Of a DNA stretch of 64,000 nucleotides, positions 5,309 to 9,590 are shown piece by piece. Numbering within the stretch: position 1 is the first letter of the stretch; each line of letters opens with the position of its first letter. The stretch spans positions 1 through 64,000 of the forward strand of contig JALHLV010000021.1 of assembly GCA_022844405.1 (NCBI GenBank), given 5' to 3'. Made by a program: the position numbers and the translations under genes. The notes below the pieces were generated by a model. The model saw only the letters and a program-made list of their open reading frames with translations. It was not told the DNA's origin and made no database searches. This DNA is from Sphingomonadales bacterium. Its GTDB lineage: Bacteria > Pseudomonadota > Alphaproteobacteria > SMXS01.

Positions 5309-5791
5309 ATGCTGATCAGGCCCGCGATTCAGGACGACTCTGACGCCATCTGGGCGATCATCGGCCCCACCATCAGGGCCGGCGACACCTATACGATCGA
5401 CCCTGACATCACCGAGGAAGCGGCCAAGGCCCGCTGGCTCGGCCGCGACCGCGAGACCTTCGTGGCGGTGGAGGACGGGAAGATTGTCGGCACCTACTAT
5501 ATCCGTCCAAACCAGGAAGGCGGCGGCAATCACGTAGCCAATTGCGGCTACATGACCGCCCAGGCGGAAGCCGGACGCGGCGTGGCCCGGCGCATGGGCG
5601 AGCATTCGATGGAACATGCGCGGGGGCGTGGCTTCCACGCCATGGTGTTCAACTTCGTCGTCGGCAGCAACGACCGCGCCGTCCGTCTCTGGCAGTCGCT
5701 GGGCTTCGCGATCGTCGGCCGTGTGCCGGGCGCGTTCCGCCATCCGACGCTGGGCTATGTCGATGCCCTCGTCATGTTCCGCAGCTTATGA
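5309..5791 (+). CDS. GNAT family N-acetyltransferase
   Basis: A 160-residue GNAT (MLIRPAIQDDSDAIWAII start, acetyl-CoA-binding region AEAGRGVARRMGEHSMEHAR, then the VVGSNDRAVRLWQSLGF beta-bulge typical of the fold). The substrate is unknown. The ATG at 5309 has GGGGAG at good spacing; an in-frame GTG at 5291 lacks it. The stop codon overlaps the start of a second GNAT gene (ATGA), so the two are translationally coupled, though they are only distantly similar to each other. Confidence 0.88.
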   Translation: MLIRPAIQDDSDAIWAIIGPTIRAGDTYTIDPDITEEAAKARWLGRDRETFVAVEDGKIVGTYYIRPNQEGGGNHVANCGYMTAQAEAGRGVARRMGEHSMEHARGRGFHAMVFNFVVGSNDRAVRLWQSLGFAIVGRVPGAFRHPTLGYVDALVMFRSL

Positions 5792-6249
5792 GTGCGGTAA
5801 TCCGCCCCGCCGCCCTTATCGACGTTCCGGCCATGGCGCGGCTGGAGGAAATCTCGTTCCCCGGCGACCGGCTGTCGGCGCGCAGCTTGCGTCGGCTGGT
5901 GCGCGAAGGGCGGGCCACGTGCCTGGTCGCCGAGCTGGATGGCTGCGTGGTGGGCGACGCGATCGCCCTGCCGCGCCGGGGCAGCCGGTCGCTGCGGCTC
6001 TATTCCGTCGCGGTCGATCCCGCCGTCCGCAAGGCGGGCATCGGCACCGCCTTACTGGCCGAATCCGAGCGGTGGGCCGCCTTGTCCGGCCATGACGAGA
6101 TCAGGCTGGAGGTACGCGAGGACAACGCGGCGGCGATCCGCCGTTACCTGGCCGGCGGCTACGTGACGACCGGCCGCAGGCCGGCCTTCTACGACGACGG
6201 CGCGGCCGCCATCGTGATGAAAAAACGTCTCGCGGGCATACCGGCTTAG
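5788..6249 (+). CDS. RimI-like GNAT, partner of the ATP-grasp ligase
   Basis: A 153-residue GNAT with VIRPAALIDVPAMARLEE, FPGDRLSARSLRRLVREG, the central LRLYSVAVDPAVRKAGIG acetyl-CoA loop and EVREDNAAAIRRY. This closely resembles the acetyltransferase part of GNAT/peptidase-C39 proteins usually encoded beside RLAN-type ATP-grasp ligases, but it ends just after the acetyltransferase, so the peptidase domain is missing. It starts inside the stop of the previous gene (ATGA) and is followed after 147 bases by the ATP-grasp gene. Its acceptor may be the ligase product; that is inference. Confidence 0.87.
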   Translation: MSAVIRPAALIDVPAMARLEEISFPGDRLSARSLRRLVREGRATCLVAELDGCVVGDAIALPRRGSRSLRLYSVAVDPAVRKAGIGTALLAESERWAALSGHDEIRLEVREDNAAAIRRYLAGGYVTTGRRPAFYDDGAAAIVMKKRLAGIPA

Positions 6250-6396
6250 CGGCCACGCGCTATCTTTACTGCAACGGCAACGGCGCGCATCATGTGGCGC
6301 GGCGGGGTTCTACGGAGCCATGGTCCGGCGAGGCAGTGCGGCGCCCCGTCCGGCATTTCAGGCGACGTCTTTTTCGGCCCCAATCGCGAAGGCCTC

Positions 6397-7857
6397 ATGG
6401 CACGACACATCATTATCGTGGATTCCCCGGCCGACTGCGAATGGGCGCAGAAAGCGGGCAAGGCCGTCACCCTGCAGCAATATGTCGAGACGCCCGACGG
6501 GCTGTCGAGCAAGAGCGCCCGCGTCGTCAATCTGAGCGGCGACCTGGAATATCTCGACCTGGGCTATTACTGCTCGCTACTGGCCGAGGCGCGCGGCCAG
6601 AAGGTGGTGCCGACGGTCGAGACCATCCTGAACCTGTCGCGCAAGCAGCTCTACAGCGTGGAGCTGCCCGACCTGAACCACACCCTGCGCGACGAGATGC
6701 GCAAGCTGTCCAACCCGCCGCAGGCGGCATTCACGCTGACCGTCTATTTCGGCCAGACCGCGGGCAACCGGTTCCGCACCTTCGCCCGCCAGCTGTTCGA
6801 CCGGTTCCGTTGCCCGCTTTTGCGCGTCGAGGTGGCGTTCGACGAGCGCTGGAGCGTCAAGTCGCTGCAGGCCATCGCGCCCCGCGCGCTCAGCCCGGAG
6901 GAGTTCGACTTCTTCCTGGCGCGCCTCGAGCACTACACCCGCGCCGATTGGCGCGCGCCCAAGGCGCGGCCCACCTCGCGCTTCGCGCTGGGCGTGCTTT
7001 ACGACGCCTCGGCCAAGCTGCCGCCGTCGTCGCCGGAGACCATCAGGAAGTTCGTCTCCATCGGCGCGCAGATGGGCATCGACGTGGAGACCATCGAGCG
7101 CAAGGACTATTTGCGGCTGGCGGAATACGACGCCCTGTTCATCCGCGAGACCACCACGCTGGAGAACCACACCTTCCGTTTCGCCCAGAAGGCGGTGTTC
7201 GAAGGTCTGCCGGTGATCGACGACCCGGTGTCGATCCTGCGCTGCACCAACAAGGTCTACCTGGCGGAGCTGCTGCAGACCAACAGGGTGCCGGCGCCCA
7301 AGACCGTCATCGTCGGCCGCCAGAACATCCTCAACGCCGAGGCCGAGTTGTCCTATCCGCTGGTGCTCAAGATTCCCGATGGCTCGTTCTCGCGTGGCGT
7401 GGTCAAGGTGGAGAACCGGTCCGACCTGCTGGAGCACGGCAAGCGGCTGTTCCGGCACTCGGCCGTGATCCTCGCCCAGGAGTTCATGTATACGGACTAT
7501 GACTGGCGGGTCGGGGTGCTGAACCGCAAGCCGCTGTTCGTGTCGCAGTACTTCATGTCGCGCAAGCACTGGCAGATCATCAACCACAAGCCGGGCGGCG
7601 GCTTCGCCGAGGGCGCGTTCCGGGCGGTGGCGGTCGAGGATGCGCCGAAGGAGGTCGTCGAGGCCGGCGTGCGCGCCGCCAACCTGGTCGGCGACGGTCT
7701 CTACGGCGTCGACCTGAAGCAGCGCGAGAACGGTGTGTTCGTCATCGAGATCAACGACAACCCGAACATCGACCGGGGCGTCGAGGACGGCATCCTGAAG
7801 GACGATCTCTACAAGACCGTCCTGAGCGATTTCATGCGCCGGATCGAAACCCGCTAG
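6397..7857 (+). CDS. RLAN domain/RimK-type ATP-grasp ligase
   Basis: A 486-residue protein with an N-terminal RLAN (RimK-like ATP-grasp N-terminal) domain, residues about 1-155 (VVNLSGDLEYLDLGYYCSLLAEARGQKVVPT), and a C-terminal RimK-type ATP-grasp fold, with VLKIPDGSFSRGVVKVEN, ILAQEFMYTDYDWRVGVLN, GVDLKQRENGVFVIEINDNPN as ATP- and Mg-binding elements. ATP-grasp enzymes join a carboxylate to an amine through an acyl-phosphate, so peptide or amino-acid ligation is expected, but the product is unknown. AAGG precedes the ATG. It pairs with the upstream GNAT, and its stop codon overlaps that of the convergent Kef gene. Confidence 0.9.
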   Translation: MARHIIIVDSPADCEWAQKAGKAVTLQQYVETPDGLSSKSARVVNLSGDLEYLDLGYYCSLLAEARGQKVVPTVETILNLSRKQLYSVELPDLNHTLRDEMRKLSNPPQAAFTLTVYFGQTAGNRFRTFARQLFDRFRCPLLRVEVAFDERWSVKSLQAIAPRALSPEEFDFFLARLEHYTRADWRAPKARPTSRFALGVLYDASAKLPPSSPETIRKFVSIGAQMGIDVETIERKDYLRLAEYDALFIRETTTLENHTFRFAQKAVFEGLPVIDDPVSILRCTNKVYLAELLQTNRVPAPKTVIVGRQNILNAEAELSYPLVLKIPDGSFSRGVVKVENRSDLLEHGKRLFRHSAVILAQEFMYTDYDWRVGVLNRKPLFVSQYFMSRKHWQIINHKPGGGFAEGAFRAVAVEDAPKEVVEAGVRAANLVGDGLYGVDLKQRENGVFVIEINDNPNIDRGVEDGILKDDLYKTVLSDFMRRIETR

Positions 7858-9590
7858 GCTGGCCGCGAGTCCTTCGGCCTGATCCCCTCATAGACCTGGC
7901 CGCGGACGCGGTCGACCACCGGCGTGACCGCGTCGGCCGGGATGCCGCGGTCCATCAGCACCTCGGCGGCGAGCTGGAGGCTCGATTCGACCATCTCGGG
8001 CACCGCCTGGCAGGCGCCGCCCTCCATCAGGTCGCGGGCATCGTCCATGTCGCGGGCGCGGACGAAGATGCGCAGCTGCGGCCATCGGTGATGGGCGGCC
8101 TCGAGCGCAGCCCGGGCGCTTTCGGCGTCGTCGAGGGTGACGACCAGCGACGACGCCCTGCCGGCGCGCACCGCCTCGAGCACTTCCGGCCGGCGCGAGT
8201 CGCCGAAATAGACCGGCAGGCCGGTGCGGTGCAGCCGCGACACCAGTTCGGCGTTCATGTCGAGCGCCACATACGGCACCCGGTGTTCGGCGAGCAGCCG
8301 CGCTACCGTGCGCCCGACCCGGCCGAACCCGGCGATCACCACATGGTCGTCCAGGTCGTCGAAATCGCCGGGCGCGCCGCCGGTCTGTTCCGGCGGCATG
8401 CGGTCGGCGGCCTTGCGCGAGATCCACTCGCCGAACAGGCCGGCGAACGGCGTGACGGCGATGCTGAGCCCGGTGACGACCAGCATGAACTGGGCGGTGT
8501 CCGGCGCGATCACCGCCCCGGCCAGCGCCGCGGTGATGACGACGAAGGCGAACTCGCCGCCCTGCCCCAGATTGAAGCCGACCTGCAGCGCCTGCGGCAG
8601 GGTGTGGCGCCACGCCAGCGCAAGCAGGGTGATCACCGCCGTCTTGATGGCGTAGAGCCCCACTACCGCCGCCGCCACCTTGCCCCAATCGTCCATGATC
8701 AGCGACAGGTCGATCCGCATGCCCACGGCGATGAAGAACAGGCCCAGCAGCAGGCCCTTGAACGGCTGGATGTTGGCGTCGATCTGGTGGCGGAATTCGC
8801 TCTCGCCCAGCAGCATGCCGGCGAGGAAGGCGCCCAGCGCCATGGACAGCCCGGCATGGAACGTCGCCACCGCCGTGCCCAGGATGGCGAGCAGGGTCAT
8901 GGCCATGAACAGCTCCGGGCTGTGCAACGCCGCGGCGCGCCGGAACAGCGGGCGCAGCAGCAGGCGGCCCAGCACGAGGATGATGGTCACGGCCAGAACC
9001 GCCTTGCCCAGGCTGAGGGCGAGGCTGGTCAGGTCGGAGGCGCCGCCGCCGGCACTGAGCAGCGCGGTCAGGAACAGGATGGGCACCACGGCCAGGTCCT
9101 GGAACAACAGGATGGAGAAGCTGGTGCGGCCGGCACGCGAGGAGATCTGGTCCCGCTCCACCAGCAGCTGCATCACCACGGCCGTCGACGACAGCGCCAT
9201 GCCGAGGCCGAGCAGCAGGCTGGCGCCCCAGCTATTGCCCCACAGATAGGCCAGCCCGCCGATCGCCGCGCCGCAGCCCAGCAATTGCAGCGAGCCCATG
9301 CCGAAGACGTAGCGCCTGGCCTTCCACAACCGGTCGAGCGACAGGTCGAGGCCGATGGTGAACATCAGGAACACGACGCCCAGCTCGGCCAGCGCCTCGA
9401 TCCGTTCGGGGTCGCGGGCGATGGCCAGCGCCGACGGGCCGACCAGCACGCCGACGCCCAGGAAGCCGATGATCGGGCTGATTCGCAGGAACCGCGAGAC
9501 CGGCACCACCACGATGGCGGTCACAAGGAAGGTCAGCAGTTCCGTCAGGAACGGCAGGCCAGTGTCGTGGCTCACGGGCATGTCTGGCAT
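7854..9590 (-). CDS. Kef-type monovalent cation:proton antiporter (CPA2) with TrkA-N domain
   Basis: A 578-residue inner-membrane protein with about 12 hydrophobic segments in the Na/H-exchanger (CPA2) fold (residues about 15-395), including the characteristic SSTAVVMQLL and FQDLAVVPILFL motifs, followed by a TrkA-N Rossmann domain from about residue 408 (HVVIAGFGRVGRTVARLL). KefB/KefC-type proteins exchange potassium for protons under control of nucleotide or glutathione adducts. GGAAGGG precedes the ATG at 9590. No KefF/KefG ancillary gene is nearby. It diverges from the glutamate dehydrogenase gene. Confidence 0.92.
   Translation of the reverse strand: MPDMPVSHDTGLPFLTELLTFLVTAIVVVPVSRFLRISPIIGFLGVGVLVGPSALAIARDPERIEALAELGVVFLMFTIGLDLSLDRLWKARRYVFGMGSLQLLGCGAAIGGLAYLWGNSWGASLLLGLGMALSSTAVVMQLLVERDQISSRAGRTSFSILLFQDLAVVPILFLTALLSAGGGASDLTSLALSLGKAVLAVTIILVLGRLLLRPLFRRAAALHSPELFMAMTLLAILGTAVATFHAGLSMALGAFLAGMLLGESEFRHQIDANIQPFKGLLLGLFFIAVGMRIDLSLIMDDWGKVAAAVVGLYAIKTAVITLLALAWRHTLPQALQVGFNLGQGGEFAFVVITAALAGAVIAPDTAQFMLVVTGLSIAVTPFAGLFGEWISRKAADRMPPEQTGGAPGDFDDLDDHVVIAGFGRVGRTVARLLAEHRVPYVALDMNAELVSRLHRTGLPVYFGDSRRPEVLEAVRAGRASSLVVTLDDAESARAALEAAHHRWPQLRIFVRARDMDDARDLMEGGACQAVPEMVESSLQLAAEVLMDRGIPADAVTPVVDRVRGQVYEGIRPKDSRPA

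Follow-up and report, generated by a model that had tools for sequence, protein, structure and literature searches.

The window, the whole 64,000-nucleotide stretch of DNA analyzed here, carries a GNAT acetyltransferase gene beside an RLAN/ATP-grasp ligase gene (5788-7857), both complete and both over the cut-offs of curated models. This peptidase-free pair is a form of the predicted GNAT-C39/RLAN system, in which the GNAT and the RLAN/ATP-grasp ligase are the constant unit and the peptidase (and, in this genus, a set of asparagine-synthetase-like ligases) is probably accessory. A core with an optional peptidase is indicated by the pairing of the two genes without exception in a survey of alphaproteobacteria, by their direct fusion, by repeated change in C39 presence, and by one visible loss of the domain. 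The pair is probably the complete functional core of the system, with a cytosolic N-acetylated amide or small peptide as its product and C39 as an accessory that can be lost. The locus is laid out as follows:

5788..6249, plus strand: RimI/Ard1-like GNAT acetyltransferase of 153 aa, lacking the C39 domain that relatives have in fusion with it (PF00583, fold match, dN/dS)
6250..6396, no strand: non-coding gap of 147 bp, where the C39 domain of relatives would lie (genus alignment)
6397..7857, plus strand: RLAN + ATP-grasp ligase, 486 aa (PF14401, PF08443, conserved start, dN/dS)
6475..6918, plus strand: RLAN domain, residues 27-174 of the ligase (PF14401, 148.5 bits)
7249..7773, plus strand: ATP-grasp domain, residues 285-459 of the ligase, with conserved K286, K325, D439, E451 and N453 (PF08443)
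7852..7860, no strand: CTAGGC junction between the stop of RLAN and that of the convergent kefB-like gene (from comparison with L005 and L003)

The predicted system of a GNAT-C39 (DUF3335) gene paired with an RLAN/ATP-grasp gene reportedly goes back to Iyer et al. 2009, and DUF3335 is often fused to GNATs (PMC10318531). The window shares with it the same GNAT family (5788-6249, recognized with a profile built from the family), the same protein with RLAN fused to ATP-grasp, and the same neighborhood; it differs in that C39/DUF3335 is gone from the GNAT, and is found neither elsewhere in the window nor in the genome. In Pfam searches the GNAT scores 57 bits against Acetyltransf_1 (PF00583, cut-off 20.7), and the ligase scores 148.5 bits against RLAN (PF14401, cut-off 25) in its N-terminal part and 26.0 bits against RimK (PF08443, cut-off 21) in its catalytic part. 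An earlier note on this DNA had proposed domain searches for RLAN and ATP-grasp, and both assignments are supported by these curated models. The AlphaFold2 model of the ligase is confident (pLDDT 89.6, pTM 0.72) and its C-terminal half matches D-Ala-D-Ala ligase, ArgX, LysX and RimK; the GNAT model (pLDDT 95.5) matches the Ard1 and RimI folds. A search by sequence turned up no solved structure that includes the RLAN domain.

The window GNAT stops at residue 153 and the ligase begins 147 bp further on. No peptidase remnant was found in this gap, where indels in the genus alignment break any reading frame. The ligase start at 6397 is conserved and the frame 5' of it is broken in relatives, which rules out a longer ligase starting at the ATG at 6292. 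A second, unrelated GNAT (5309-5791), left aside in the earlier note, weakly ArsN1/PAT-like and far below the cut-offs, lies directly upstream, and the window GNAT gene begins within its stop codon. This upstream GNAT was rejected as a partner since it is not conserved across the genus (a match in G004, none in L003, L005 or L006).

The earlier note had described the GNAT as the acetyltransferase half of the usual fusion, with no peptidase in the window. This observation is confirmed and extends to the whole genome as regards DUF3335: in the 3.78-Mb assembly (G000; 41 contigs, 100% complete), neither PF11814/DUF3335 nor PF03412 gave a match at E<=10, so a stand-alone C39 of the DUF3335 family, for which the note had suggested a search, is not available in trans. 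PF13529 (C39_2) gave only a sub-threshold match (15.8 bits, cut-off 24; C5:115909-116127). The retropepsin family PF05618 is absent from the genome, ruling out a RimB-like retropepsin as a peptidase substitute. RLAN is present in all seven genomes of the genus and the GNAT-RLAN pair is kept, with DUF3335 in 0/7; the peptidase-free members include one genome in 2 contigs that is 100% complete. The agreement of all seven rules out the assembly error that the note had named as a possible refutation.

The distribution of the system was surveyed in 387 alphaproteobacterial genomes, each at least 90% complete. RLAN occurs in 50, DUF3335 in 38 and both in 29, an association with an odds ratio of 50 (Fisher p 1.5e-22, uncorrected for kinship). 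A GNAT of the same family adjoins RLAN in 50/50 RLAN-bearing genomes, with or without C39, an adjacency far beyond chance; this includes all 21 genomes that have RLAN and lack DUF3335, whose loci were read. The GNAT-C39 fusion adjoins RLAN in 28 of the 29 genomes having both domains, and in most of the gamma- and zetaproteobacterial loci read as well. Thus the claim that RLAN ligases are commonly encoded beside a GNAT-C39 fusion holds (28/50 among alphaproteobacterial RLAN genomes), with C39 a frequent, not universal, feature of RLAN loci. Loci without the peptidase make up 22/50, occurring in many separate lineages and also in small genomes of 1.8-2.0 Mb, and in 21 of these 22 genomes DUF3335 is found nowhere. 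In two single-contig complete genomes (G327 and G388) a single ORF, 666 and 670 aa long, encodes both the GNAT and RLAN/ATP-grasp. The reading of the locus given in the earlier note is therefore right in part: the peptidase is truly absent here, but the reduced form is not peculiar to this genome, since it makes up almost half of the loci and has arisen repeatedly. The suggestion that a reduced form may show which parts are essential is borne out by the contrast between a constant GNAT and ligase (50/50) and a variable peptidase (28/50).

Counted against the core-pair reading is that the GNAT and RLAN genes are not neighbors in Alcanivorax; in Alcanivorax and Allopseudospirillum no GNAT lies within about 6 kb of RLAN, and of nine genomes tested seven have a GNAT-C39 fusion elsewhere. 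In L051-L060 (Methylophaga) and in L031, L033, L045 and L049 (Mariprofundus), RLAN is directly adjoined by a gene that is conserved and lies on the other strand (about 390 aa in L049), perhaps resembling DUF2817/M14-like carboxypeptidases. Locus L007, on a contig labelled Gammaproteobacteria, has an RLAN 64% identical to the window's that falls within the alphaproteobacterial branch, and is probably a misbinned contig.

Nothing would truly be missing if a peptidase encoded elsewhere in the genome, unrelated to this family or strongly diverged from it, carried out the C39 step in trans. Genome G158 might be taken as a precedent: its locus (L054) has GNAT and RLAN without C39, and stand-alone C39/DUF3335 proteins are encoded elsewhere in the genome, one of 667 aa with two tandem domains (L163:2722-4725) and a separate one of 216 aa (L162:2996-3646). 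The sub-threshold C39_2 match in G000 points the same way. However, the other 21 genomes with peptidase-less loci, like the seven of the genus, have no DUF3335, and G000 has no PF03412, which makes supply in trans improbable. The RLAN-free alphaproteobacteria G038, G145 (L142), G147, G227, G294 and G355 also encode DUF3335 proteins that stand alone; these are about 230-253 aa long and are perhaps a separate subfamily.

A tree of 119 RLAN proteins, which by itself does not separate gain from loss, requires C39 to have changed between present and absent 14 times, at least 9 times on well-supported branches, and places the window's genus among C39-bearing lineages (G088, Tistlia). The direction of change is apparent in one pair of genomes of the same genus, G074 with C39 and G316 without it, whose RLAN genes are 85% identical in DNA and whose flanks align: G316 has about 153 bp where G074 has a 679-bp stretch holding C39, which by alignment is a clean deletion of the domain. 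Where present, C39 has both its Cys-Gly and its His-Trp motif intact in 85/85 cases, and the domain fused to GNAT is apparently active.

In the other six members of the genus (G002-G007), RLAN is followed directly, on the same strand, by one to three asparagine-synthetase-like (AS-like) genes:

L003:7530-11248: AS-like genes 3' of RLAN
L004:3085-6816: AS-like genes 3' of RLAN
L005:7531-10995: AS-like genes 3' of RLAN
L006:7629-11423: AS-like genes 3' of RLAN
L175:9753-11594: AS-like genes 3' of RLAN
L176:10780-16396: AS-like genes 3' of RLAN

Their products score 30.7-41 bits against PF00733 (cut-off 21) and show weak similarity to macrolactam cyclases and to the amidotransferase of N-acetylglutaminylglutamine (NAGGN) synthesis as well. 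No such genes were found at any RLAN locus examined outside the genus. The aligned proteins keep the SGG ATP motif; none starts with Met-Cys (no N-terminal Cys2), so that use of glutamine is unlikely. No lasso-peptide cluster was recognized by eye around the two unlinked copies. The first AS-like protein of G007/L005 (L005:7531-9066) lacks about 85 residues (near 66-152) that are present in the 90%-like L004 copy, possibly through gene decay or an assembly fault. The window genome has only distant AS-like homologues (57 bits). Within the genus its RLAN clusters with those of L003, L004 and G004, with L006 and G003 falling outside, and all five have AS-like genes; given this nesting, the simplest reading is that the genes were lost in the window lineage. 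CTAGGC at the window's RLAN/kefB-like stop junction is matched by a CTAGGC at the kefB end in L005, consistent with loss by short-homology deletion. The window locus would then be reduced on two counts, lacking the peptidase and having lost the AS-like genes. A tentative possibility is that in this genus the peptidase step was replaced by one to three AS-like amide synthetases, giving a three-enzyme pathway, and that the window species then reverted to the bare two-enzyme core.

Two successive losses in the window lineage might instead mark a decaying remnant, in which the peptidase and then the AS-like genes were lost and the system is disappearing; a GNAT dN/dS of up to 0.57 could be cited in its favor. 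The state of the genes makes this very improbable. Comparisons among members of the genus give RLAN a dN/dS of 0.04-0.11 and the GNAT one of 0.26-0.57, values that indicate purifying selection; the catalytic residues K286, K325, D439, E451 and N453 are invariant in all 28 peptidase-less ligases aligned, and the reduced form persists in many separate lineages, the small genomes included. The GNAT evolves much faster than RLAN, which is counted against the core-pair reading since the function of the GNAT may be drifting. Peptidase-less and C39-fused GNATs also differ at residues 63-68 and at 138. A loop reads YxDG, as in Nat-type enzymes, in peptidase-less members vs YEDH in C39-fused ones: H is found in 55/81 GNATs with C39 and 1/29 without, and G in 27/29 without. 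The sole peptidase-less GNAT with H is that of G316, the recent C39 loser. On phylogenetically independent pairs the change counts about 5 to 0 (median p 0.06), and the columns were chosen by scanning every position; a convergent YEDH/YxDG change tied to C39 is for these reasons a suggestive lead. The ligase active site of the peptidase-less proteins has no change comparable to this loop shift.

GNATs of named families transfer acetyl groups to amines, and ATP-grasp enzymes of named families form amides via acyl-phosphates. If the window pair is the functional core, the GNAT, which has the fold and loop of Nalpha-acetyltransferases (RimI/Ard1), would acetylate an amino acid or short peptide at its amino group. 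The RLAN/ATP-grasp ligase would activate a carboxylate with ATP and join it to an amine, so that a cytosolic N-acetylated amide or small peptide results; C39 would be an accessory that trims the product or a precursor, turns it over or transpeptidates it. The two reactions, their order, a C39 that is accessory and not replaced, and a small-molecule in place of a protein substrate are what we infer from the genes and their relatives. A search of the open literature on RLAN/DUF3335 function yielded no substrate, product or phenotype, and only DUF3335 was mentioned.

NAGGN synthesis, in which GNAT and ATP-grasp are known as one protein, is the analogy by which the likeliest product is a small amide or peptide carrying an N-acetyl group. 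The NAGGN synthetase and amidotransferase (TIGR03103, TIGR03104) offer a works-like comparison, combining GNAT and ATP-grasp with an AS-like partner as in the sister genomes. Membership is another matter: the window GNAT reaches 17.6 of 569 bits for TIGR03103, far short of the equivalog cut-off, the ligase does not figure among the 25 matches listed and differs in having an RLAN domain, and the sister AS-like proteins score 21.6-42.6 of 570 bits against the NAGGN models.

The main rival to a small-molecule substrate is a protein one. The GNAT would then acetylate a protein N-terminus, and the ligase would extend the C-terminus of a protein or carrier with amino acids, on the model of RimI and RimK acting on ribosomal proteins or LysX/ArgX acting on LysW. 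RimI/Ard1 and RimK/LysX/ArgX are indeed the nearest relatives in sequence and fold, and the catalytic half of the ligase shares their ATP-grasp fold. However, the ligase adds the N-terminal RLAN domain and falls below the subfamily cut-offs (75.9 of 143.4 bits for the RimK alpha-L-glutamate ligase, TIGR00768), the GNAT misses that of RimI (61.2 of 86.4 bits, TIGR01575), and no carrier or target gene is conserved beside the pair. Protein modification is thus rather unlikely. Other ATP-grasp/peptidase pairs are found in Pseudomonas, where the RloABC operon encodes the ATP-grasp protein RloC and the retropepsin RloA (PMC12239564). The likeness lies in an ATP-grasp protein genetically opposed by a peptidase; the peptidase class differs, GNAT/C39 is not described there (PMC12239564), and PF05618 is absent from the window genome.

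Across Proteobacteria the GNAT-C39/RLAN system occurs widely, with two of its proteins constant and sometimes joined in one polypeptide, and the finding of this core tells which two proteins to assay first. Natural pairs with and without the peptidase, one of them within a single genus, can be used to find the product and the role of the peptidase. If the three-enzyme reading is true, the GNAT, the RLAN/ATP-grasp ligase and the AS-like ligases would make up a new peptide/amide pathway.
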